Source of the DNA: Thiocapsa marina 5811
Lineage (GTDB): Bacteria; Pseudomonadota; Gammaproteobacteria; Chromatiales; Chromatiaceae
Assembly: GCF_000223985.1 (NCBI RefSeq)
Contig: NZ_AFWV01000012.1
Span: 124,001-188,000, forward strand
DNA: 64,000 nucleotides
Reading direction: 5' to 3'
Below are positions 52,431 through 63,744 of this stretch, piece after piece. Position 1 is the stretch's first letter. Each line of letters begins with the position of its first letter. The notes beneath the pieces are model-generated. The model saw only the letters and a program-made list of their open reading frames with translations, ran no database searches and was not told where the DNA came from. A program made the position numbers and the translations under genes.

Positions 52431-53123
52431 ATGGATATTGCGCTGCCTGTCGATCCGGTGATCGCGATCGCGCGGGGCACCCGTGTCGTGCTCGTCGAGA
52501 TCGATTCGGAAGGCGGTGCACTTGCCGTCCCGGGAGAGGGAGAGGGAGCGGCACAGGACGTGGAACGCAACCTACACGCTGTCGCGCAGTGCCTGAAGGA
52601 CCTCGAAGACGACATCGACCTTCAATTGGAGATCCTGCGACTGCGGGGTTCTGCTTCCCGGACAGGTTCGAACGGTCTCGCCCCGGGGAGCCGACGGATC
52701 TGCGGCGAGGATACGTCGTGCGGGTTCATCCATCAACTCGACAAGCACGGCCTGGACATCGCATTGAGCGCCGGCCGCCACGCGGCCGAGCGTGCCAAGC
52801 TTGCAGGGGTCGGGCGTCTCATTGCCATGGCCCCGTCGTTGTGCACGGCGGCCGCCTGGCAGCTCCCGAGAGCGGGTGCGGATGCAGGGTATGCGGCGCT
52901 CCGCTTGCCCTGTCCCGATCGGTCTCTCCCAGATGCCCTCGCACACGTTGACTTCTATGACGCCTTGCGTTGCCGCGGTCGATCCGAGATCGCTGCATTG
53001 GTCGGCGTTGCGATTGCGGCGGCCCAGATGGGCATCCCGTTCTGTCTACCCGATTCTGCGGGCGGTGTCGCGGCGGAGGCGGCGGTCGGATTGAACCCCG
53101 GCGTGCGCGCTTGGCTCGGGTGA
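52431..53123 (+). CDS. CobT-like protein, possibly truncated
   Basis: A ~230-residue soluble protein. Its last 100 residues (EIAALVGVAIAAAQMGIPFC, AAEAAVGLNPGVRAWL) resemble the C-terminal half of CobT, the nicotinate-nucleotide:dimethylbenzimidazole phosphoribosyltransferase. The earlier part (HAAERAKLAGVGRLIAMAPSL) loosely matches its centre. The catalytic Glu region of CobT is not obvious, and the protein is ~110 residues short. The frame is open farther upstream, so the start is uncertain. It follows cobQ directly, which supports a cobalamin link. The 3' end overlaps the convergent YwaF gene by 78 bases. Confidence 0.5.
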   Translation: MDIALPVDPVIAIARGTRVVLVEIDSEGGALAVPGEGEGAAQDVERNLHAVAQCLKDLEDDIDLQLEILRLRGSASRTGSNGLAPGSRRICGEDTSCGFIHQLDKHGLDIALSAGRHAAERAKLAGVGRLIAMAPSLCTAAAWQLPRAGADAGYAALRLPCPDRSLPDALAHVDFYDALRCRGRSEIAALVGVAIAAAQMGIPFCLPDSAGGVAAEAAVGLNPGVRAWLG

Positions 53124-53849
53124 ACGCGGCGACGGCCGCTTCGCACGTGACCTCGCCGCGATACGATCGGCGATCGGGAACGGCAGGTAATAGACGAAGC
53201 TCGACACCAGCGCCAGTCCGGCCAGGCTCAGGATGTACCAAGGCCACGGGCCGAGAAGATCCATCAGGGAGGCTTGCTCGGGCTTGCTGCAGAGGAAGAG
53301 ATAGTTCGTCCCCAACCAGAGATTGATCGGGGCAACAACGGCCACGACGAGCAGCAAGGCAGCGAGCGATTTGAAGATGGACGAGAGTCTCGGTCTAAAG
53401 CGATAGACCAAGGTGGCATAAAGGACGCCGACGATGACGAGTCCATGCCCGATGAAAAAAGCAATGAAGGTCGGGTCCGGAAATCCCCTCTCCAGATCCG
53501 GCGTCAAGAGTGCCTGCAGGGTCCCGCCCCACGCCCAGAAATAGACGATCTCGTAGGCGGAATACGACCGCGCCGCGAGGGTCCATGCCGTCAGCAGAAC
53601 CGACAGTCCGCAAAGATGCAGCGGCAGCAGGCTGCTCAGGAGCCGATCGTAGTGGTTCGCCAGTAGCCAGATATGGACGCCTTCCTGCAGGATCAAAAGG
53701 GCTGCAATCGCGAGCCCGATTCCATATCGAGTCCTGGTGCGGGTTGCTCTGCGCACCGACAGCGGCAGCCCGATCCCGGCCGCGGCGATCAACAGTATGC
53801 CGATCACGTGCGCCGAACCGAAAAGGACGAGTGGGTCCGTCGTGCTCAT
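53046..53849 (-). CDS. YwaF/TIGR02206-family integral membrane protein
   Basis: A 267-residue protein with seven hydrophobic segments. LILQEGVHIWLLANHYDRLL, LPLHLCGLSVLLTAWTL, IVYFWAWGGTLQALLTPDL and PINLWLGTNYLFLCSKPEQA match the TIGR02206 pattern. Function is unknown. Starts at ATG 53849 with GGAG upstream. The C-terminal ~25 residues lie over the opposite gene and look like random basic sequence. Confidence 0.85.
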   Translation of the reverse strand: MSTTDPLVLFGSAHVIGILLIAAAGIGLPLSVRRATRTRTRYGIGLAIAALLILQEGVHIWLLANHYDRLLSSLLPLHLCGLSVLLTAWTLAARSYSAYEIVYFWAWGGTLQALLTPDLERGFPDPTFIAFFIGHGLVIVGVLYATLVYRFRPRLSSIFKSLAALLLVVAVVAPINLWLGTNYLFLCSKPEQASLMDLLGPWPWYILSLAGLALVSSFVYYLPFPIADRIAARSRAKRPSPRSPEPSAHAGVQSDRRLRRDTARRIG

Positions 53850-54451
53850 CGATCTTCTCCTGCTCTGTCGCCGTACCCGTTCGCGGGCCGGCCGATACTT
53901 GGATCTCCGGGCGTCTCTCTTCGTTCGTGATCCGTCGGTTTCGGATAATAGCCCACCGATTGAATCAATCTGACGCTTTTGATCGACGAAAAACACCGGA
54001 CGAATGCGGTGAGCTTTACGCGCAAAAGCGTATTCGTCTCGATCCCCCTGGCGACTCTTCGAGCACCGACACTCGAATAACCCCGTCCGGACCGATGAAT
54101 TCGCGTCTCCACGAATTGAAACGGATTCATTTTCAACAGATCCACCGTATTCGATTTTACTAATATGGTGGAATAACAAAATGAAAAATCTTGATAAAAT
54201 TATTTTGTCGGACTCTTGACACCATTCCTGTCGACACTACATCCTAATCCTGTCAATAATGACGATAGGTAACAACGACTAAAACGATCGATATTTCCAC
54301 TCGGTTGATCGCGGGTCGGACCCCTGCGTAATCGCCTCGCTAGGTCAGAAGCCGTTCTTTGCCCTGTCGATGCGTTGAATACATCTTGGACACGTGACAA
54401 AAACACTATCGGCGCTGTTCAGAAGACGCCAATAACGAGGTGGAGACAACA
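53850..54451. other. AT-rich regulatory gap before the redox cluster
   Basis: About 600 bases, with 54150-54300 clearly richer in A and T than the rest of the window. Possible elements: TTGACA at 54217 with no good -10 at 17 bases; a perfect GTCA-ATAA-TGAC dyad at 54252-54263; and a 12-codon minicistron at 54181. Promoters for the cluster are expected here. No gene is supported. Confidence 0.5.
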
Positions 54452-55471
54452 ATGTCTGACATTGTAGATCACAGCAGAAGGCAGTTTCTGTCGTTCGCAG
54501 GTAAAGCCGGCTTAACGACCTTCGTCGCGCAAGCGGTCGGAATCAATCTCGGGATGGTCGATATCGTTCGGGCGCAGACGGGTAAGCGCGGTGTCGAGCC
54601 TTTCCGGTTTGCGATCATCAGCGACTCGCATCTGTATAGCATGCCGGATCATAAATTCGACCAGCAGCTCGCCGATGCGGTTGCGCAGGTCAATGCGATG
54701 ACGCCACTGCCGGACTTCGTGCTTTACGGCGGCGACGTTGCCCAAAACGGAACTGAAGATCAATTGGTCAAGGGGAGCAAGATCCTCAAAGATCTGAAGA
54801 TGCCCTTGAAGATCATTCCGGGCGAGCACGACTGGTATCTCGACATGGGCGACGCTTGGCGCGGCCTCTTCGGCGACGAGACCTGGTCGTTCAATCACAA
54901 AGGTGTGCATTTTATCGGCCTCAACTCAATCCTGGTTCGCGATTTCTGGACCGGAGCGGGAATGACGCCCCTCGAGCGTATGACCGTCATGGAGATGCTC
55001 GAAAGCCCGATCCCGGGTCCATGGGGTGTGCATGAGAAGCAGCTCGAGTGGCTGGCCAACGACGTGAAGGACCTTGCTCCGGATACGCCGATCGTGGTCT
55101 TCACCCACTCCCCGCTTTGGGATTACTACCCTCGCTGGAACTTCCAAACCTCCGACGCTCCGGAGATCCGCGAGATCCTCTCGAAGTTCGACAACGTCAT
55201 GTCCTACCACGGTCATGTCCATCAAACCCTATTCAATCGGATCGGGAACATGAGCTCGGTTGCCGCATTGAGCACCTCTTGGCCGTGGCCCTATCCGCCG
55301 GTCGAGCTGGCTTTCCCCGAGACGCGTATGAACCGAGCGGATCCCTCGATCGCGACCGACGGTATGGGCACGCAGATCATCGATCTCAGCGGATCTTTCG
55401 AGGGTCTGGTGCAGTACCAACCGTTCGAGGACTCGCTGACGCCGTTCATGAGAGACGGATTCAAGGTCTAA
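54452..55471 (+). CDS. Tat-exported metallophosphoesterase
   Basis: A 339-residue periplasmic calcineurin-type hydrolase. Tat signal HSRRQFLSFAGKAG (residues 7-20). Metal motifs: D58-S-H60, GGD at 93-95, GEHD at 124-127, FTHSP and HGHVH. The third motif is GEHD, where most family members have GNHD, so one metal ligand differs. First gene of the cytochrome-SoxYZ-HiPIP cluster. SoxB, the hydrolase of the Sox pathway, is also a binuclear-metal phosphoesterase-fold protein, so a similar hydrolytic role on a carrier-bound group is possible, but this protein is shorter and is not SoxB. Starts at ATG 54452 with GGTGGAGA upstream. Confidence 0.88.
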   Translation: MSDIVDHSRRQFLSFAGKAGLTTFVAQAVGINLGMVDIVRAQTGKRGVEPFRFAIISDSHLYSMPDHKFDQQLADAVAQVNAMTPLPDFVLYGGDVAQNGTEDQLVKGSKILKDLKMPLKIIPGEHDWYLDMGDAWRGLFGDETWSFNHKGVHFIGLNSILVRDFWTGAGMTPLERMTVMEMLESPIPGPWGVHEKQLEWLANDVKDLAPDTPIVVFTHSPLWDYYPRWNFQTSDAPEIREILSKFDNVMSYHGHVHQTLFNRIGNMSSVAALSTSWPWPYPPVELAFPETRMNRADPSIATDGMGTQIIDLSGSFEGLVQYQPFEDSLTPFMRDGFKV

Positions 55472-55480
55472 GGGGGAGCG

Positions 55481-55996
55481 ATGATGACGAACAAGATGCT
55501 GAAGATCGAACGACTCTTGGCCGTGTCGGCCCTCGCCGGGGTTATCGCTGCCGGGACCAGTTGGGCCCGTGCGCCGTTCACCGATGAAGAGCTCGCGGAG
55601 CAAAAGGCCGCTTTGGTGGAATCGATTGCTCTCGGGTATGACCTCTGGCACGGCAGCCGGGCCGATATGACGACCAACGGGCTGGCCTGCGGTAATTGCC
55701 ACCCGGATACGGCCGCGTCCAATCCCCAGACCTTTCCGAAATACATGACCATGTACGGCAAGGTCATTCCTTTCCGTGAAATGGTGAATTGGTGTATCGA
55801 GAATCCGCAAGCAGGGACGCGGCTCGACGTCGATGGCGACGATATGACCGCGATGGAGGCCTACGCCTTCTATCTGCATCGCGGTAAGGAAATCACCCCC
55901 GGTCTGGCAAGCGAGCAAACCACGCCTATCGTCGTGGAATACGGCACCGGTTTCGCGCGAACACCGACCGGTATCGGCGTCGATACCAAGCCGTAA
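55481..55996 (+). CDS. Monoheme c-type cytochrome, SoxX/TsdA-like
   Basis: A 171-residue periplasmic cytochrome. Signal peptide (LLAVSALAGVIAAGTSWARA), then LGYDLWHGSRADMTTNGLAC with heme motif C70-G-N-C73-H74. NPQTFPKY, REMVNWCIENPQAG and DDMTAMEAYAFYLHRG follow. The last segments resemble those of thiosulfate-oxidising cytochromes (SoxX/SoxA/TsdA group), which supports a sulfur role; the distal ligand is probably one of the Met residues. An extra Cys (C105) is present. Starts 9 bases after the phosphoesterase stop, with GGGGAG upstream, so the two are co-transcribed. Confidence 0.85.
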   Translation: MMTNKMLKIERLLAVSALAGVIAAGTSWARAPFTDEELAEQKAALVESIALGYDLWHGSRADMTTNGLACGNCHPDTAASNPQTFPKYMTMYGKVIPFREMVNWCIENPQAGTRLDVDGDDMTAMEAYAFYLHRGKEITPGLASEQTTPIVVEYGTGFARTPTGIGVDTKP

Positions 55997-56030
55997 CGCT
56001 TTTCGAAGCAAGGGCTCACCGGCAGGCTCC

Positions 56031-56048
56031 CTTTGCGGGGCGCCTGCC
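56031..56048 (+). terminator. Intercistronic hairpin after the cytochrome gene
   Basis: A stem GGCAGGC/GCCTGCC enclosing only a few bases plus part of the arms' inner sequence; no T-run follows. It could limit transcription or protect the upstream mRNA segment. Confidence 0.35.
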
Positions 56049-56127
56049 AATGGATTACGGGCACTGTCGACAATTTTAAATCGGTTGTCGGCAGATCGTC
56101 GGTCGCGAGGCTTCGAGGCTGTCATCG

Positions 56128-56667
56128 ATGATGCTGGGTAGAGCGGCATTCCTTTTCCTGATTCTCCAGGGAGTCTTCGTTGGCCCGGGCCTTGCCGAAC
56201 AGCGCTGCGACACCGGCCGCTATCCGCTGTCGTCACCGACGGAACGGTTCAGCGACAACGGCGACGGCACCGTCACGGATGCCGCCGCCCAGTTGATGTG
56301 GATGCGGTGCGCCGCGGGACAAACCTGGTCCGGCGGGACCTGCGTCGGTGAAGCGGCCGCCTACGACTGGCAGGGAGCGCAGGAGCATGCAGTCGCGACG
56401 AGCGCGAGCGGAGGACAGTTCTTCAACGACTGGCGCGTGCCGAAGCTGCGCGAGCTGGCGATGATTGCGGAGAGACAGTGCGAGAACCCTCGCATCAATC
56501 TGACGATTTTTCCCGAAACACCGCCGATCGTCTTCTGGACCGAGTCGTTGCGTCCGGGCGAGGGCTTCGAGACGTTCGCCTACGCACTGAGCTTCGGGCC
56601 GGAGGGCGTCCTGCATACGGCCAAAAGCGAGCGGCATGCGGTGCGGCTCGTGCGGACGGCACCATGA
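56128..56667 (+). CDS. Exported DUF1566 (Lcl C-terminal-like) protein
   Basis: A 179-residue protein. Signal peptide MMLGRAAFLFLILQGVFVGP, then RFSDNGDGTVTDAAAQLMWMRC, YDWQGAQEHA, FFNDWRVPKLRELAMIAERQC, VFWTESL and HAVRLVRTAP. These are the landmarks of DUF1566, a C-type-lectin-like fold in bacterial surface proteins. Function in this cluster is unknown; it may be a binding or assembly factor. Four Cys residues could form disulphides. Confidence 0.87.
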   Translation: MMLGRAAFLFLILQGVFVGPGLAEQRCDTGRYPLSSPTERFSDNGDGTVTDAAAQLMWMRCAAGQTWSGGTCVGEAAAYDWQGAQEHAVATSASGGQFFNDWRVPKLRELAMIAERQCENPRINLTIFPETPPIVFWTESLRPGEGFETFAYALSFGPEGVLHTAKSERHAVRLVRTAP

Positions 56668-56749
56668 TCGCCCTGGTGGTCCATCGAGCCTGGAGTACCG
56701 CGGTGAGGAGGGTGCGGTCCGGAGACCTGTTTTCCCCGTGGGGGCGGAC

Positions 56750-57223
56750 GTGAGCGGAAAAGATGCCGGTGTCGATCGGCATCGCCGGGGCTTCGTAGCG
56801 GCCGGCGGGGTCTTGTTGGCGTTGTCGCATGTCGGATTACTCGCCTCTGCGCGGGCGTCGATCCGGCAGCTTCCCGACCTGTTCTCCGCCACGACGATCG
56901 ACGACGCTCTCGCCATTCTGGGCAGCGTCGGGGCCGACGAGCATGCCGTCGAGTTGACCTTGCCCGGCGTTGTCGAGGACGGGGCGGTGGTTCCCGTAAG
57001 GGTGTCGAGCACGCTCGAGGGCGTCGAGGAGATCTATCTGCTGGTCGCGAGCAATCCGTATCCGGTCGCGGTTCGCTTCGAGATCCCGAGCGGGACCGAG
57101 CCGTTCGTCTCGGTACGCCTGAAGTTGGCGCAGACCGGTTCGGTCTACGCCGTCGTCAGAACCCGCGACGGGCTCTATTCCAGGGTCGCGGAGACTCGGG
57201 TCACGGTCGGCGGATGCGTTTGA
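56750..57223 (+). CDS. soxY: SoxY-like sulfur carrier subunit, Tat-exported
   Basis: A 157-residue protein with a Tat-type signal (HRRGFVAAGGVLLALS). The Ig-like SoxY core follows (DDALAILGSVGADEHAVELT, PVRVSSTLEGVEEIYLLVAS, FVSVRLKLAQTGSVYAVVRT). The C-terminus ends VTVGGCV, keeping the Gly-Gly-Cys swinging arm (Cys156) on which SoxY carries sulfur intermediates, but one residue differs from the common GGCGG end. GTG start at 56750, chosen for its GGGGGCGG ribosome site and the Tat signal. SoxZ follows. Not accompanied by soxA, soxX, soxB or soxCD. Confidence 0.88.
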   Translation: MSGKDAGVDRHRRGFVAAGGVLLALSHVGLLASARASIRQLPDLFSATTIDDALAILGSVGADEHAVELTLPGVVEDGAVVPVRVSSTLEGVEEIYLLVASNPYPVAVRFEIPSGTEPFVSVRLKLAQTGSVYAVVRTRDGLYSRVAETRVTVGGCV

Positions 57224-57295
57224 TGATGCCTTTGATCGGGGGCTGCTCCGCGAGAGGACAGTCTTTCGGGTTACGGGACCAGAGTGAAACAGGCC

Positions 57296-57607
57296 ATGGC
57301 AGATCCGATACGAATCCGCGCGAAGAGCAACGACGGTATCACCGAGGTCATGCTCTTGATGCTGCACCCGATGGAGACGGGACTGGGAGTGGACGCATCG
57401 GGTCGAGGGCGTCGCGCGCATTACATCCGCGACGTCGAGGTCAATCTCGGCGATCGGACGCTGTTGCGGGCACGTTTGAGTATCGCCGTTTCGAGGGATC
57501 CCTTGATCGCGTTTCGATTCAAGGGGGGCTCGAAGGGCGATCGCATCAACGTTCTTTGGACCGACAACCTTGGCGAGCGAGGAGCAGGATCGGCCTCGAT
57601 CGCTTGA
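57296..57607 (+). CDS. soxZ: SoxZ-like sulfur carrier partner
   Basis: A 103-residue protein of the SoxZ family, partner of SoxY. MADPIRIRAKSNDGITEVML, LMLHPMETGLGVD, HYIRDVEVNLGDRTLLRARL and FRFKGGSKGDRINVLWTDNLG match the SoxZ immunoglobulin fold. As is normal it lacks a signal peptide and would be exported with SoxY through the Tat system. ATG 57296 is preferred over a GTG four codons earlier. About 70 bases separate it from soxY. Confidence 0.9.
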   Translation: MADPIRIRAKSNDGITEVMLLMLHPMETGLGVDASGRGRRAHYIRDVEVNLGDRTLLRARLSIAVSRDPLIAFRFKGGSKGDRINVLWTDNLGERGAGSASIA

Positions 57608-57773
57608 CCGTCGCTACCGGATCGTAGCGCCGGGCGAATATCCGATCGCCTGTGTGTCCGTGTCTGCGATCGGTAGAAGACCAGGCGCGAAGGGCTCTGC
57701 GGCAAAGAGAACCCTTTGCAGCCTTCATTAGACCACCAAGCCTTAAATTAACCATCAAACGAGGATACGCACG

Positions 57774-58100
57774 ATGAGCCAATGCAATCGCCGGACGTTT
57801 ATCGTTCAACTTGTTGCGGGTAGCTCGGCGCTCGCTTTCGGACGCTTGAGCGTTGCCGACGAGGCGAAGAAGATCCTGACCGAAGACGACGCCTACGCGA
57901 AGTCGATGGGCTTCCGATTGGATACGACGCAGGTCGACCAGGCCAAATACCCAAAGCATACGGTCGAGCAGAAATGCAGCGAGTGTCAGTTGTTCTCGGG
58001 AGAGCCGGGTGAGCCGCTCGGACCCTGCTCCTTTTTCGGAAAACGCTTGGTTCCGGTCGATGGCTGGTGCCGAAACTTCAAACCGAACGGTGCCGCCTAG
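57774..58100 (+). CDS. hip: High-potential iron-sulfur protein (HiPIP)
   Basis: A 108-residue periplasmic electron carrier. Tat signal (CNRRTFIVQLVAGSSALAFG), then the [4Fe-4S] Cys set C68-x2-C71-x13-C85-x13-C99 in KCSECQLFSG, GPCSFFGKRL and VDGWCRNF. The VDGWC end is typical of HiPIP. In purple bacteria HiPIP carries electrons to the reaction-centre cytochrome, which here is the domain type encoded by the next gene. The x13 gap between Cys 2 and 3 is shorter than in the Allochromatium protein (x16). Confidence 0.93.
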   Translation: MSQCNRRTFIVQLVAGSSALAFGRLSVADEAKKILTEDDAYAKSMGFRLDTTQVDQAKYPKHTVEQKCSECQLFSGEPGEPLGPCSFFGKRLVPVDGWCRNFKPNGAA

Positions 58101-58329
58101 TCCGGCAAGTCGGCGGACGAGCACGACGACGGGGCGGCGCAACGACACCGATCCCGTCGCAGCGGACTGGATCGGCGCGACAGGTCCGCACACCGCATCC
58201 AGCGCCGAGAGCGATTGGATCGGAGCCAGGAGTCAGGTGCCGGGGCAATGACCGCGCAACCACGCCACTAAAACAAAGCCGGTCGTCCGGTGCGCCGGAC
58301 GCAGGGCACGAGCATTGGAGGTCACAGCG

Positions 58330-61326
58330 ATGAGGTGTCCCGCAGGCACTTCGGAGCAAGCGCGAGTGCATGTCGTGCACCGGCGCATGCAACGGATCGA
58401 CCGGCAAAAGGCCATCGGCGCTTTGCCGTCCTCAACCCTCGGCAGTCATATTCAGTCGCATCGAGACTCGGGCCGCAGAGGCGCGACATGGATGATGGCG
58501 GGTCTGATGTTGTTCGGCTCCCTCGGTCTCGTCGGTTGCGATCGCACCGAGAGCGTGCAGTGGGGCCCACGCGGAACCTCGGCGATTCACATCGACAGAC
58601 CAAGTCGATTGCAGGCGGAGGCCGACCTCCACGGCATCCCCGCGCCGGAGCCGCGCGATCCGCCGGACCCGGCGATACCGCTCGCGACGGAGGTCAACGA
58701 GAACGTTCAGGTGCTCACCGACCTGGACGCGCTCGAGTTCGCACGTCTGATGCAGGCCATGTCGACCTGGATCGCCCCGGAGCAGGGCTGCGAATACTGC
58801 CACAACACCGAGAACCTGGCCTCGGACGAAAAATACACGAAGGTGGTCTCGCGTCAGATGCTGCGCATGACCCGGGACATCAATTCAAATTGGAAGTCGC
58901 ATGTGGCGGGAACGGGAGTCACCTGTTGGACCTGTCATCGCGGCCAGGCGGTCCCGTCCGAGATCTGGTTTACCAACCTCGGGCCGACCACGCCTTCAGC
59001 CGGCATCTCCGGCAACAAGGCGGGTCAGAATACGGCAGGCGTGCAGGCGATCGGCAACGCATCGCTCCCGTTCGATCCCTTGACACCCTTTCTGGAAGGC
59101 GACACGCAGGTCTCCGTCCAAGGCACGACGGCACTGCCGTCGGACAATCGAAATTCGATCAAGAAGGCCGAGTGGACCTACGCCCTGATGATGTACATGT
59201 CCAACTCGTTGGGCGTGAACTGTACCTATTGTCACCAAACCCGAGCGATGGGGGTTTGGGAGCAGAGCACGCCCCAGCGGGTGACTGCATGGCACGGCAT
59301 TCGGATGGTGCGCGATCTCAATGGAGACTACCTCAATCCACTGAAGACATTGTATCCCCCCGAGCGACTGGGTGCGACCGGCGATGCTCCCAAGGTGGCT
59401 TGCGACACCTGCCATAAGGGAGCGTTCAAACCGCTTCTCGGCGTCAGCATGCTCGGAGACTATCCCGAGTTGGCCGGATATCGGACGCAACGACCGGGAG
59501 TCGTGCCGGAGGACGATTTAGCGCCGGCGTTTGCGGAACAGGGTGTGGAAAGTTCGCTGGTTGCGGCACTGGAGGACACGCAGCCGGAGGCGCAGGAGGG
59601 TGTGGCGGAGGTTGCGACGGAATCCGTCTCCACGGCGGTATCACCGATTGCCGATGTCGAAATTTTTTTGCGGCGGCGAGCACCTCGAAGTCTTGGCTCC
59701 GAGGCGGTATCGCCGATTGCCGATGTCGAAACGGTCGCGGACGCGGACGCGGAATCAGGTCACGAGGTTGATACCCTATCAGCGCCGATACCGGAAGTCG
59801 CGGCCCTACAGGCCGACGAGCCGGAGGTGATCGATACGCCAACGTCCGCAGGGGACGCCGGACTTGCCGAAGCGGAACGCTCCGCGTTGCTCCAAGAACT
59901 GGAGACCGTTCGCGCGCAGCGCGACGCCGCTACGACCGATGCCGAGGCGCGGATTGCCGCGTTGCAGCAACAGCTCGCGGTGGTGCGCGCCCAACGTGAT
60001 GCCGTTTCAGCCGAGGCCGAGGGGCAGATCGCCAAGCTGTCCGATGAACGGTCCGCGGCTCTGCGGGCCGCCGGGGCGAGGCTCGACCAAGAGCGCACCG
60101 CGTTGCAGCAACAGCTCGCGGTGGTGCGCGCCCAGCGTGATGCCGTTTCAGCCGAGGCCGAGGGGCAGATCGCCAAGCTATCCGATGAACGGGCCGCGGC
60201 GCTGCGGGCCGCCGGGGCGAGGCTCGACCAAGAGCGGACCGCGCTGCAGCAACAGCTCGCGGTGGTGCGCGACCAGCGCGATGCCGTTTCAGCCGAGGCC
60301 GAGGGGCAGATCGCCAAGCTGTCCGATGAACGTGTTGCGGCGCTGCGGGCCGCCGGGGCGAGGCTCGATCAGGAGCGCACCGCCTTGCAACAACAGCTCG
60401 CGGTGGTTCGCGGTCAGCGCGATGCGGTCGCGGTCGATGCCGAGGCGATGGTCGCAGAGCTGTCCGATGAACGGGCCGCGACTCTGCGGGCCGCCGGGGC
60501 GAGGCTCGATCAGGAGCGGACCGCCTTGCAACAACAGCTTGCGGTGGTTCGCGGGCAGCGCGATGCGGTTGCAGCCGATGCCGAGGCGCAGATCGCCGAT
60601 CTGGCCGAAGATCACGCGAGGATGCTGCAGGCGGCCGGTGCGAGACTCGATCAGGAGCGCATTGCCCTGCGGCAGCAGCTCGGCGTGGTCCGCGGGCAGC
60701 GCGACGCCGCCTTGGCGGACACCGAATCCGAGTCGCAGATCGCTGCGTTGACGCAGGAATTGGATGCCTTGCGGGCGACGCTGACCGAGGCGGATGCCGC
60801 CGCCGCGGATCTGCGTGCACAGATGCAGGCTGCAGTGGCCGCGCATGTGCGAGAGCTGGCTGAAGCCGAGGGGTCGATCGCGCGGATACGGACGCTGTAC
60901 GAGGGTGCGGCCGAGGTCGGCGGACGAATCACCCCGGAGGGAATTCTAGTCAATCTCGGTGGGGAGGAGCTTCGGTTCCCGAGCGGCAGCGCCATCCTGC
61001 CGGCCGGCGCTCTGCCGATGCTCGACCGAATCGCCGAGATGCTTGCGGCGAGATCCGACCTGAAGGCAAAGATCGCCGGGCACACCGACAGCCAGGGCAA
61101 TCCCGAGATCAATCAGACCTTGTCTCGGCAGCGTGCGGAATCGGTCATGCAGGCCCTGATCGATCGCGGGGTCGACCCGGGCCGACTCAGTACCGAGGGC
61201 TATGGTGCCGAGCGACCGATCGCCGACAACGCGACCGATCGGGGGCGTCGCGAGAATCGTCGCGTCGAGATCGTGATGATCGAGCAGACCGAAGGTGGAT
61301 CGGTCAGCAACCCCACCGAAAGCTGA
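58330..61326 (+). CDS. Lipoprotein fusing a PufC-type tetraheme cytochrome to a coiled coil and an OmpA domain
   Basis: A 998-residue protein. Lipobox LGLVGC with lipidated Cys70 after a long basic N-region; Asp71 follows, which in enteric bacteria favours inner-membrane retention. Residues ~75-385 match the reaction-centre cytochrome subunit, with hemes at C154-x2-C157-H158, C199-x2-C202-H203, C298-x2-C301-H302 and C358-x2-C361-H362, and axial Met candidates in RLMQAM, RQMLRM and LMMYM. An acidic linker (~385-540) contains a repeat. Six 47-residue coiled-coil repeats start at residue 545. Residues ~880-990 are an OmpA-type peptidoglycan-binding domain (FPSGSAIL, GHTDSQGN, NRRVEIV). No pufLM is nearby. 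ATG 58330 with GGAGG upstream. Confidence 0.92.
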   Translation: MRCPAGTSEQARVHVVHRRMQRIDRQKAIGALPSSTLGSHIQSHRDSGRRGATWMMAGLMLFGSLGLVGCDRTESVQWGPRGTSAIHIDRPSRLQAEADLHGIPAPEPRDPPDPAIPLATEVNENVQVLTDLDALEFARLMQAMSTWIAPEQGCEYCHNTENLASDEKYTKVVSRQMLRMTRDINSNWKSHVAGTGVTCWTCHRGQAVPSEIWFTNLGPTTPSAGISGNKAGQNTAGVQAIGNASLPFDPLTPFLEGDTQVSVQGTTALPSDNRNSIKKAEWTYALMMYMSNSLGVNCTYCHQTRAMGVWEQSTPQRVTAWHGIRMVRDLNGDYLNPLKTLYPPERLGATGDAPKVACDTCHKGAFKPLLGVSMLGDYPELAGYRTQRPGVVPEDDLAPAFAEQGVESSLVAALEDTQPEAQEGVAEVATESVSTAVSPIADVEIFLRRRAPRSLGSEAVSPIADVETVADADAESGHEVDTLSAPIPEVAALQADEPEVIDTPTSAGDAGLAEAERSALLQELETVRAQRDAATTDAEARIAALQQQLAVVRAQRDAVSAEAEGQIAKLSDERSAALRAAGARLDQERTALQQQLAVVRAQRDAVSAEAEGQIAKLSDERAAALRAAGARLDQERTALQQQLAVVRDQRDAVSAEAEGQIAKLSDERVAALRAAGARLDQERTALQQQLAVVRGQRDAVAVDAEAMVAELSDERAATLRAAGARLDQERTALQQQLAVVRGQRDAVAADAEAQIADLAEDHARMLQAAGARLDQERIALRQQLGVVRGQRDAALADTESESQIAALTQELDALRATLTEADAAAADLRAQMQAAVAAHVRELAEAEGSIARIRTLYEGAAEVGGRITPEGILVNLGGEELRFPSGSAILPAGALPMLDRIAEMLAARSDLKAKIAGHTDSQGNPEINQTLSRQRAESVMQALIDRGVDPGRLSTEGYGAERPIADNATDRGRRENRRVEIVMIEQTEGGSVSNPTES
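59634..59731 (+). repeat. 29-bp direct repeats in the cytochrome-OmpA linker
   Basis: GGCGGTATC-CCGATTGCCGATG type units at 59634-59662 and 59703-59731, 28 of 29 bases identical, 40 bases apart, with a T7 run between. They encode VSPIADVE twice. They look like a short mobile or slippage-derived insertion within the coding sequence. Confidence 0.75.
59962..60750 (+). repeat. 141-bp tandem repeat encoding the coiled coil
   Basis: Units start at 59962, 60103, 60244, 60385, 60526 and 60667, each exactly 141 bp (47 codons), beginning TTGCAGCAACAGCTCGCGG or close variants. The first three are nearly identical and later ones diverge, which suggests growth by recent unequal exchange. Each unit encodes LQQQLAVVRAQRDAVSAEAE and on to LDQERTA. 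Confidence 0.92.
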
Positions 61327-61372: not shown

Positions 61373-61459
61373 TGAAACCGCGCCCAGCGCGGTATGCGAT
61401 GTTTTTGGATGGGATCGGCCCCGGCAGACGTGACGACCGTTGGAGCCGGCGCGGTTTTA
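61373..61459 (+). repeat. Type 1 TAAACCGCG repeat, complete (87 bp)
   Basis: Ends TGAAACCGCGCCC and CGGCGCGGTTTTA. Nearly identical in reverse complement to 25786-25870 (shared GCGATGTTTTTG and GATCGGCCCCGGCAGAC blocks). The final TTA (61457-61459) is the rlmKL stop codon on the minus strand. Confidence 0.85.
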
Positions 61460-63634
61460 AGCAGGCTTGGTGATCCGCCAACATTGGTGGATCCGTGGGT
61501 TGCGGGCAAAGTCGCGAGGGATGGTCTCGCGGCTGATGTCCTGGATCTCGAGATCCGCCAGATCGTCGGCGTACAACCGAAACCGGCGCAAGTTGTTCGA
61601 GAATATCAGCAGACCACCCGGCTCGAGCAGCCGGGTGGTCGCTCGAATCAGGCCGACATGGTCGCGCTGAATGTCGAGTGTGTCCGTCATCCGCTTGGAG
61701 GTCGAGAAGCTGGGCGGGTCCAGAAAGATCAGATCGAATCGGCGCCTGCCGGCGGCCTCGTCCAGCCATTGCAGACAGTCCGCCTGCACCAGCTCCTGGC
61801 GCTGCATCGGGACATCGTTCAGCGCGAGATTGTCGCGCGCCCAGTCCAGATAGGTCCGAGACATGTCTACCGTCGTGGTGCGCGTCGCGCCGCCTTTCGC
61901 GGCATAGACGGTTGCCGTTCCCGTGTAGGCAAAGAGGTTCAGAAAGCTCCGGCCCTCGGCCAGCTCGCCGATCATGCGGCGAATGTCGCGATGGTCCAGG
62001 AAGAGCCCGGTGTCCAGATAGTCCTCGAAATTGACCAGGAATCTGAACCCCCCCTCCTTGACCGCGTGAAAGCGGCGCGTTTCGGCGAGCCGCTCGTACT
62101 GGGCGGTGCCCTTCTGAGGCCGGCGGATCTTGAAGAACATCCGCGACTCGGGGACCTCGAGCACCTCCGGGATCACGCTCAAGGCCTCGCGCAACCTGTG
62201 TCGGGCGCGTTTGGGGTCGACGCTCGTCGGCGCGGCATACTCCTGCACATGCACCCAGCGTTGCGGCGCGTCGCCTTCGGGCTCGCCTTCGTAGATATCG
62301 ACGGCGACCGCGTACTCGGGCAGATCCGCGTCGTAGGCCCGAAAGCAGTCGATCTGCTCCTTGCGGCGCCATTTCCCGAGCGCCTTGAGATTCTTCGTCA
62401 GCCGGTTGGCGAGCATGGTCGCGCCGTCGCTACGCTCGGTCGGCGCGAGCGTGCGCGGCCGATTGGCCACGAAATCGCTCGACTCGATGCGAAAATGCAG
62501 CAGCTGACACTCGATCGGGCCGTTGTAGAGATGGTGGATCCGGTGTGCGCGCAGGCCCATGTGCTTGCCGAGGTCCGGGCTGCCGGTAAAAAGCGCGGCG
62601 CGCCAGCCCTCGAAGCGTTCCTTGAGCACCGAGCCGAGGCGTGCATGCAGAGCCGGCAGCTCGGCCTCGGAGCCGAGCCGCTCGCCGTAGGGCGGGTTGA
62701 CCACCACGAGACCGCGGTCGTCGTCGCGACCCGGCCGGCAGTCGGCCAGCTCGCGGCGCTCGAAGTGCGCAAGCCCTGCCAGTCCGGCCCGCGCCAGGTC
62801 TTCGATCGCGATGCGGATGGCGCGCGGATCCTGATCGTAGCCGCGCAGCGAGCCGAGACGTTGCAGGCCGGCGCTGCGCCGGATCTCGGCCTCGTCGAGC
62901 AGTCGCTGCCAGGCGGCCGCGTCGTGCTGCAACCAACCCATAAACCCGAAGCGCTCGCGCAATAGCCCCGGCGCGATGTCGGCCGCGATCAATGCGCCTT
63001 CGATGACGAGTGTCCCGGAGCCGCACATGGGATCGAGCAAGGCGCCGCCCTCGGCCGCGATGTCCGGCCAACCCGCGCGCAGCAGGATGGCCGCCGCGAG
63101 ATTCTCCTTCAGCGGCGCCGAGGTCCCCTCGCTGCGGTAGCCGCGCCGGTGCAGGGACGTTCCGGACAGATCGATGCTGACCGATGCCTGATCCTGATGG
63201 ACATAGACATGGATCCGAAGGTCCGGTGACTCGGGATCGACGCTCGGTCGATAACCCAGAAGACGGGTGAACCGATCGGCGATCGCATCCTTCACGCGCA
63301 AGGCGGCGAACTGCCCGTGGCTGACGCCGTTCACGACACCGTCGAGCTGGATGGCGAAGGTGCTTTCGGGCGAGAGATGCTCCTCCCAATGGATCCTCTC
63401 CGCCCCGGCGTAGAGTTCGTCCGGTCCGGTGGCCGGAAACTGTGCGAGCGGCAGCAGGATGCGATTGGCGACGCGCGACCAGAGACATGCCCGATAGGCG
63501 TCCTGAATCTCGCCGACGAACCGTGCCCCCCCGCGTGCCTCGACCGCCCCTTGCAGGCCGAGTCTGGCCAGCTCCTCCGCGAGTAGACTCCCCATGTGCT
63601 TGGGCGCGGAGGCGAAGAAGGTGTGCTGGGGCAT
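61457..63634 (-). CDS. rlmL: Bifunctional 23S rRNA methyltransferase RlmK/L
   Basis: Methylates G2445 (N2) and G2069 (N7) of 23S rRNA. The 725-residue protein starts with a THUMP domain (~45-160), then an RlmL domain with LLDPMCGSGTLVIEGALIAADIAPG and VVVNPPYGERLG, and an RlmK domain with FLNLFAYTGTATVYAAKGGA, FDLIFLDPPSFSTSKRM and LIFSNNLRRF. I chose ATG 63634 (MPQHTFFASAPKHM); the ORF extends further upstream through non-protein-like sequence. Stop lies in a type 1 repeat. Confidence 0.96.
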   Translation of the reverse strand: MPQHTFFASAPKHMGSLLAEELARLGLQGAVEARGGARFVGEIQDAYRACLWSRVANRILLPLAQFPATGPDELYAGAERIHWEEHLSPESTFAIQLDGVVNGVSHGQFAALRVKDAIADRFTRLLGYRPSVDPESPDLRIHVYVHQDQASVSIDLSGTSLHRRGYRSEGTSAPLKENLAAAILLRAGWPDIAAEGGALLDPMCGSGTLVIEGALIAADIAPGLLRERFGFMGWLQHDAAAWQRLLDEAEIRRSAGLQRLGSLRGYDQDPRAIRIAIEDLARAGLAGLAHFERRELADCRPGRDDDRGLVVVNPPYGERLGSEAELPALHARLGSVLKERFEGWRAALFTGSPDLGKHMGLRAHRIHHLYNGPIECQLLHFRIESSDFVANRPRTLAPTERSDGATMLANRLTKNLKALGKWRRKEQIDCFRAYDADLPEYAVAVDIYEGEPEGDAPQRWVHVQEYAAPTSVDPKRARHRLREALSVIPEVLEVPESRMFFKIRRPQKGTAQYERLAETRRFHAVKEGGFRFLVNFEDYLDTGLFLDHRDIRRMIGELAEGRSFLNLFAYTGTATVYAAKGGATRTTTVDMSRTYLDWARDNLALNDVPMQRQELVQADCLQWLDEAAGRRRFDLIFLDPPSFSTSKRMTDTLDIQRDHVGLIRATTRLLEPGGLLIFSNNLRRFRLYADDLADLEIQDISRETIPRDFARNPRIHQCWRITKPA

Positions 63635-63744
63635 CTTGGGCGGTGGGTCGTCAGGGGATCGGGCCACGCAGTATATACCGGTCGCCCGGCAGTCCCGCTT
63701 CGGTTCTCCCGAGCATCCGTGAGCCTGAATCCGGCATTCAGAAC

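Follow-up and report, generated by a model that had tools for sequence, protein, structure and literature searches.

This work reports that seven consecutive genes in Thiocapsa marina 5811, encoding a calcineurin-fold metallophosphoesterase (MPE), a monoheme c-type cytochrome, a DUF1566 protein, SoxY, SoxZ, a high-potential iron-sulfur protein (HiPIP) and a tetrahaem PufC-type lipoprotein carrying an OmpA domain (PufC2-OmpA), form a real and portable unit. Its core is a pair of MPE and cytochrome, and, as the MPE and PufC trees indicate, a single clade of the pair has gained HiPIP and the second PufC. We propose, with a confidence somewhat short of even, that the unit is a light-coupled periplasmic oxidation system, in which electrons would pass from the cytochrome through HiPIP and PufC2 to the photosynthetic reaction centre and the substrate is inferred to be a sulfur compound.

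Gene content of the cluster

The window, that is the whole stretch of 64,000 nucleotides analysed here (G000:C51:124001-188000, with G000 the own genome), carries the seven ORFs in a row on the plus strand, and all of them score above the Pfam cut-offs, so that the gene order and families given in the initial annotation stand. The features are as follows.

53049-53855, minus strand: left flank, outside the unit, TMEM164-related gene (PF14808)
54452-55471, plus strand: core gene 1, MPE, a twin-Arg calcineurin-fold metallophosphoesterase of the GEHD variant (PF00149 Metallophos, 51.9 bits)
55481-55996, plus strand: core gene 2, monoheme c-type cytochrome of the SoxA/TsdA domain family (PF21342 SoxA-TsdA_cyt-c, 37.6 bits)
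56128-56667, plus strand: DUF1566 / Lcl_C exported protein (PF07603, 83.5 bits)
56750-57223, plus strand: SoxY of the subfamily ending in GGC plus one residue (PF13501, 90.1 bits); start uncertain, the frame being open from 56636
57296-57607, plus strand: SoxZ, no signal peptide seen (PF08770, 92.9 bits)
57774-58100, plus strand: twin-Arg HiPIP (PF01355, 64.8 bits)
58330-61326, plus strand: PufC2-OmpA, a tetrahaem PufC-type lipoprotein with a repeat linker and an OmpA domain (CytoC_RC, 437.4 bits); ATG at 58330 used as start, TTG at 58315 also possible
59957-60709, plus strand: PufC2-OmpA linker, a repeat unit of 141 bp (47 aa) present 5.3 times, resembling a coiled coil by eye
60976-61260, plus strand: OmpA domain of the peptidoglycan-binding family (PF00691, 74.0 bits, residues 883-977)
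61457-63700, minus strand: right flank, outside the unit, RlmKL 23S rRNA methyltransferase (NF008748, 949.6 bits)

Six of the proteins bear export signals and SoxZ bears none, as had been stated earlier; the signals were read by eye, with no predictor run, and comprise twin-Arg motifs on MPE (SRRQFL), SoxY (HRRGFV) and HiPIP (NRRTFI), Sec-like signals on both the cytochrome and the DUF1566 protein, and a lipobox (LVGC-D) on PufC2-OmpA. Three of the spaces between genes (131, 166 and 229 bp) are long enough to accommodate internal promoters, and a promoter and terminator scan of the cluster gave output near chance level. By ORF list and Pfam search, no SoxX, SoxB or SoxCD, no pufLM, and no decahaem cytochrome, porin (Pio) or FoxE-type gene was identified among the cluster genes.

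The seven genes behave as one block

The genes had been taken for a single system, with conserved gene order in relatives set beforehand as the test, and this idea is supported by the order, by the presence or absence of the block as a whole and by co-inheritance across two classes. The cytochrome orthologue occurs in 8 of the 11 Thiocapsa genomes, and six of the 11 (the own genome, G002, G003, G004, G007 and G010) hold the complete set of seven, identically ordered and flanked. In G008 the cluster occupies the same site between the flanks with soxYZ missing, and G009 has MPE, cytochrome, DUF1566, HiPIP and a PufC lacking the OmpA part at a different locus, together with a separate PufC-OmpA that adjoins RlmKL. 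The block is absent from G001, where the TMEM164 match (with one stop) and the RlmKL match are 43 bp apart, and from G005, where they are 75 bp apart; no TMEM164 match was found in G006, which is without the cytochrome. Beyond the genus, four Thiohalocapsa loci (L092-L095) have the same seven genes in the same order, and the betaproteobacterial loci L110, L119 and L121 have that order minus the OmpA part. Where soxYZ lies inside the cluster it does so in two subclades, both times between DUF1566 and HiPIP, and in the betaproteobacterial loci L101 to L103 it lies divergently upstream.

Unrelated neighbours held together by chance synteny in Thiocapsa could also yield such a picture, as the flanks too are conserved in seven genomes. 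This explanation is hardly credible and was rejected, because the same order stands amid other flanks in Thiohalocapsa L092 and the betaproteobacterial loci, five of the genes lie at a different locus in G009, and the block is absent from G001 and G005, whose flanks adjoin.

A LysR-type regulator gene is divergent from the MPE gene at L121:6543-7580, L114:6914-7819 and L110:6546-7532, with CbbR as its best family, below cut-off.

The MPE-cytochrome pair is the core and occurs in four locus types

Scanning named genomes with the MPE alignment returned at least 574 confirmed relatives, of which the best 80 were kept and assigned to locus types by their neighbours. Among these best 80 of at least 574, the cytochrome gene directly follows the MPE gene in 76, and the other four reach contig ends within 78 bases. 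Type A, with HiPIP and/or PufC, comprises 24 of the best 80 loci; type B, with no HiPIP, PufC or MauG and mostly DUF1566 only, comprises 27, a count that includes the incomplete L103 as well as L116, whose genome also carries the type A locus L120; and types C and D, with a MauG-type gene, comprise 29, type C also having a CarboxypepD_reg-type protein. In the majority of type A and B loci the gene next after the cytochrome is DUF1566. A midpoint-rooted tree of 90 MPE rows, built by the quick method with SH-aLRT support, puts types C and D each on one side of a branch and gathers type A into one supported group of 33 rows inside type B, a group that also holds the incomplete L125, labelled B.

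The MauG-type assignment includes CCP_MauG matches over the Pfam cut-off in L029 and L160 and below-cut-off matches of the NCBIfam MauG and MbnH models in L029 and L138. In relatives, this core seems to be coupled to sinks of another kind, namely a cbb3-type oxidase or a MauG/MbnH-type dihaem enzyme. Carriers of the pair include Gallionellaceae, and the type D hosts include Myxococcota and Acidobacteria, which are not known as sulfur oxidisers.

Viewed by eye, cbb3-type oxidase-like genes lie beside the pair at L251:4121-10682, accompanied there by a SCO1-like gene, and at L030:6233-11871, and beside a cytochrome at a contig end at L032:14213-17926.

The cytochrome belongs to the SoxA/TsdA domain family

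The cytochrome has a single CxxCH at residues 70-74 and an additional Cys105. It scores 37.6 bits against PF21342, over the cut-off of 27, and its profile matches the PDB entries of SoxA (1h31, E 5.6e-12) and TsdA (4wqd, E 2.6e-9), with Cys105 falling on the Cys of TsdA and of each SoxA haem domain. For the predicted structure (pTM 0.71), all Foldseek matches with E up to 0.1 were TsdA or SoxA. The residues C70, C73, H74, W104 and C105 are invariant in 60 of 60 cytochrome rows, which had been chosen by a motif that includes [NQE]WC; of 89 sequences picked by BLAST, 84 have N[WF]C[IM], the three exceptions printed comprising QWC, EWC and an ORF truncated ahead of the motif. To call this protein a monoheme cytochrome merely similar in type to those of Sox, as the initial annotation did, understates its membership of the SoxA/TsdA domain family. 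It is nevertheless neither a SoxA of the SoxXA type, scoring 36.3 against TIGR04484 under the cut-off of 110, nor a two-haem TsdA, having one CxxCH.

According to the TsdA study (PMC6879331), Cys96 of TsdA is an essential haem 1 ligand to which substrate becomes covalently bound, conjugation being reported there as a mass shift of +112, and the same first step is proposed for SoxAX. The cytochrome is like TsdA, its best fold match, in having a Cys at the haem 1 ligand position, but differs from it in having one haem instead of two and an MPE neighbour wherever the locus is visible.

The metallophosphoesterase is a GEHD variant of the calcineurin fold

The MPE scores 51.9 bits against the calcineurin-like Pfam family (cut-off 21.5) and carries GEHD in place of the usual GNH[DE] motif. 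In an alignment of 69 rows, D58, H60, D95, G124-E125-H126-D127, H219, H255 and H257 are invariant, as are T275 and WPWPY at 277-281. Profile and alignment agree that the usual motif residues, which we take to be the metal ligands of GpdQ, Rv0805 and the purple acid phosphatases, are kept except for Asn to Glu. The AF2 model (pTM 0.83) has as its best predicted fold matches GpdQ (Foldseek E 5.5e-12), Rv0805 and purple acid phosphatase. Although alike in fold and in the motif residues save Asn, the MPE is distinguished from these enzymes by the Glu and by its pairing with an electron carrier.

The SoxB model TIGR04486 was not among the NCBIfam matches of the MPE. A kinship with SoxB was considered and rejected, as profile and fold are nearer to GpdQ, Rv0805 and purple acid phosphatase; nothing in the protein is SoxB-like beyond the superfamily, and its description as a stand-in for SoxB is unproven.

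Remote GEHD proteins pair with a cupredoxin

A family HMM built from GEHD rows, with hits not picked by motif, was searched against 398 genomes of the phylum, at most five candidates being scored per genome. Matches at E <= 1e-20 came from 20 of the 398 genomes, three of them strong, and GEHD is present in all 30 loci returned from these 20 genomes. GEHD also occurs in 92 of 93 ORFs of an earlier set, a count that is discounted because most of those ORFs came from the scan with GEHD in its patterns. Among 17 remote genomes (L224-L240, including G265 and G366), tblastn placed a cupredoxin beside the MPE in 16, the queries being five cupredoxins drawn from those same remote loci; by position alone, a cupredoxin-like ORF lies directly downstream of the remote MPE in 11 of 17. 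The same queries match one of the best 80 type A-D loci (L144) and none of 30 ordinary Metallophos loci taken as control (PF00149 search, 60 genomes). In the control, all 17 of the 30 loci with a readable motif have GNHD, and none of these 17 has an adjoining small c-type cytochrome.

We tentatively suggest, as a reading that is possible though unlikely, that the GEHD proteins may be a large branch of the calcineurin fold in which Asn has become Glu and the site is redox-active or redox-coupled, paired with a one-electron carrier in nearly every locus seen and plugged into the host's own sink, which could be a terminal oxidase, a MauG/MbnH-type enzyme or, in phototrophs, the reaction centre via HiPIP and a dedicated second PufC.

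Two examples of remote GEHD MPE genes, L253:4624-5930 and L254:5852-7207, have sigma-factor/anti-sigma-like genes nearby (by eye).

SoxYZ is an optional part

The SoxZ of the cluster is of the true type, with 94.9 bits against TIGR04490 (cut-off 76). Its SoxY scores 110.4 bits against TIGR04488, below the cut-off of 125, and ends in GGCV, in contrast to the GGCGG terminus of the true type; among the cluster SoxY proteins, 14 of 15 end in GGC plus one residue and one in SGCS. SoxYZ is missing from otherwise full clusters (G008, G009, L104-L109 and L114), and no SoxY match was found in 12 of 20 type B, one of 10 type C and 9 of 10 type D genomes. With SoxY missing from full clusters and from many type B and D genomes, the term "carrier-linked" in the initial annotation does not describe the core: SoxYZ is optional and is not needed for the core reaction.

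SoxY is present in all 21 type A genomes. This count is not evidence of partnership, because in five of the single-SoxY type A genomes whose loci were read (L200, L201, L202, L203 and L205) that copy is of another, "AAC-arm" type; universal SoxY in type A, once entertained as evidence of a SoxYZ partnership, was dropped after the SoxY loci had been read. In these five phototrophic Betaproteobacteria the SoxY ends in AACID, AACVD or AACIE, is accompanied by SoxZ and a SoxA-like cytochrome, and lies beside a large molybdoenzyme-like gene (named by eye).

SoxB had been reported absent from the cluster, and a check for standard sox genes elsewhere in the genome had been proposed. It is indeed not in the cluster, but the own genome encodes it on another contig (G000:C42:69189-70916), and three further SoxY genes are present in that genome. 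SoxB scores over cut-off in all 11 Thiocapsa, 8 of 20 type A and 9 of 23 other genomes. Among nine non-Thiocapsa type A genomes with soxYZ in the cluster, it is below cut-off in three (G053, G054 and G055), which are metagenome-derived, G055 showing a weak SoxB match.

Compared with the Sox system (SoxXA, SoxYZ, SoxB and SoxCD), the unit is alike in having SoxYZ with a C-terminal Cys arm, a SoxA-family haem domain and a calcineurin-fold protein, all periplasmic by signal. It differs in that the monoheme cytochrome comes without SoxX, the MPE is nearest to GpdQ, Rv0805 and purple acid phosphatases, SoxY ends in GGC plus one residue, HiPIP and PufC2 are built in, and SoxYZ is optional. The SoxYZ paralogue systems of TIGR04487 (AACIE arm) and TIGR04557 (quinoprotein-associated) likewise combine a SoxYZ-type carrier with a non-Sox partner, but their partner enzymes are others, and the unit's scores are far below both cut-offs.

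A further SoxY-SoxZ pair of the own genome, with a GGCGG end, is found at L083:6589-9882 (G000:C51:35000-50000), where a small protein matching neither Pfam nor NCBIfam comes before it and a PhoX-like protein (PF05787) after it.

HiPIP and PufC2 as a probable connection to the reaction centre

The complete PufC domain of PufC2-OmpA (PF02276, residues 72-382) contains four CxxCH motifs, and the protein scores 442.8 bits against NF040706 photo_cyt_PufC, with a cut-off of 150. It shares the four CxxCH and the family model with the PufC of the puf operon, from which it differs as a second copy outside the operon, of a separate clade and, in Thiocapsa and Thiohalocapsa, fused to OmpA; the puf-operon PufC of the own genome is on another contig (L085). 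An extra PufC occurs in all eight Thiocapsa genomes with the cytochrome and in none of the three without it, and three Thiocapsa genomes have the standard PufC with the unit missing.

Reaction-centre L/M genes (PF00124) were found in 18 of 20 type A genomes and in none of 23 type B, C or D genomes, a count that covers 44 of the 80 loci, in 43 genomes; the two type A genomes without a match, G054 and G057, have one PufC match each. PF02276 matches are present in 21 of 21 type A genomes, two matches in 18 and one in 3, and in none of 11 others tested. In the PufC tree (54 rows, 44 of them different, L132 left out), 35 cluster rows from gamma- and betaproteobacteria split with support 100/99.9 from 19 other PufC, these being the 18 best-scoring PufC per genome plus the upstream L092 copy, itself a repeat of one; the same split was obtained in another tree with uneven trimming. 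Additionally, in Thiohalocapsa L092 (G038) the unit starts 2.5 kb after the puf-operon PufC, and the G052 contig that matches L115 by coordinates holds the unit, PufC and a reaction-centre gene.

Gene content, the separate PufC clade and the linkage in L092 and G052 are together consistent with HiPIP and PufC2 relaying electrons to the reaction centre, which is likely, and well supported by gene content, as the electron sink. As the association rests on one clade, it does not amount to many independent observations. HiPIP is a donor to reaction centres in Rubrivivax, according to PMC10037100. The earlier proposal that electrons run via HiPIP to a PufC-type tetrahaem protein thus finds support in gene content. 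A cell-wall end point, which had been part of that proposal, gives way to the reaction centre as the more probable one, because reaction-centre genes accompany the PufC2 version and, among the rows of the PufC tree, only those from Thiocapsa and Thiohalocapsa carry the OmpA part.

Proposed function and alternatives

The cytochrome and SoxYZ are best read as pointing to sulfur oxidation. On this model, the cytochrome would carry a His/Cys haem, as in TsdA and SoxA, and could oxidise a thiol or a thiosulfate-level sulfur compound by conjugation, the acceptor being Cys105 or, in clusters that have SoxYZ, the Cys at the SoxY C-terminus. The dimetal MPE, with Glu for a metal-binding Asn, might then act on the conjugate by hydrolytic release, or on a feeder substrate; SoxB releases by hydrolysis. 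Electrons would flow from the cytochrome through HiPIP and PufC2 to the reaction centre, and in Thiocapsa and Thiohalocapsa the OmpA domain may tie PufC2 to peptidoglycan.

Since the core is also found where SoxY is lacking, a broader enzyme of the phosphoesterase fold, coupled to electron transfer, may be at work instead. The GEHD protein might be a redox enzyme or an electron-coupled hydrolase for a non-sulfur substrate, such as a phosphorus or organic compound, with the cytochrome or cupredoxin only its one-electron acceptor and SoxYZ a lineage-specific accessory. The GEHD motif in every locus of the family HMM search, the cupredoxin beside remote members as opposed to the control Metallophos loci, and the many core carriers without SoxY all fit this alternative; even so, we hold it to be rather unlikely, as the partner in types A-D is no plain class I cytochrome but one of the SoxA/TsdA type that keeps the catalytic Cys position, and SoxYZ takes the same cluster place in two subclades. 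A decayed or duplicated ordinary Sox system would explain why SoxYZ and a SoxA-family cytochrome are present in the cluster while standard SoxB and SoxY lie elsewhere in the own genome, and yet it is very improbable: SoxY misses TIGR04488 and the cytochrome misses TIGR04484, the MPE has no SoxB model match, the cluster is without SoxX, SoxB and SoxCD, and the MPE-cytochrome pair is far more widespread than its SoxYZ version.

A role in maturation, protection or iron handling was also weighed, in which MPE and cytochrome modify or repair a partner, or PufC2-OmpA exchanges electrons with the cell surface in the manner of phototrophic iron oxidisers. MauG and MbnH modify or repair a partner, and their likes are neighbours in types C and D; the invariant WPWPY of the MPE, the SCO1-like and oxidase-like genes (by eye) in L251 and the Gallionellaceae among the carriers point the same way. 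Against this stand the lack of an identified decahaem cytochrome or porin in the cluster, the failure of a MauG-type query to match in type A loci, and the family membership of HiPIP and PufC as reaction-centre electron donors, which together make such a role improbable.

No paper describing the unit was found among those listed in searches of a literature that lacks most subscription papers. The accessible part of the Thiocapsa bogorovii genome paper (PMC10892978) gives a second PufC and a SoxYZ copy only as separate genes; judged by gene order, the tags LT988_21280, LT988_21285 and LT988_21295 of T. bogorovii BBS would be SoxY, SoxZ and PufC2. If the light-coupled oxidation proposed here is true, it would provide an extra electron-input route to anoxygenic photosynthesis, common to purple sulfur bacteria and phototrophic Betaproteobacteria, and a role for the second PufC and for a SoxYZ copy. 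The GEHD MPE represents a widespread family that is matched by general phosphoesterase models only, and its steady pairing with electron carriers suggests a chemistry that is not in the family's name.

The invariant WPWPY of the MPE, together with the MauG/MbnH-like neighbours in types C and D, raises the question whether a Trp is modified. A metallophosphoesterase is placed in an arsenic gene map by a figure legend of PMC6620896.
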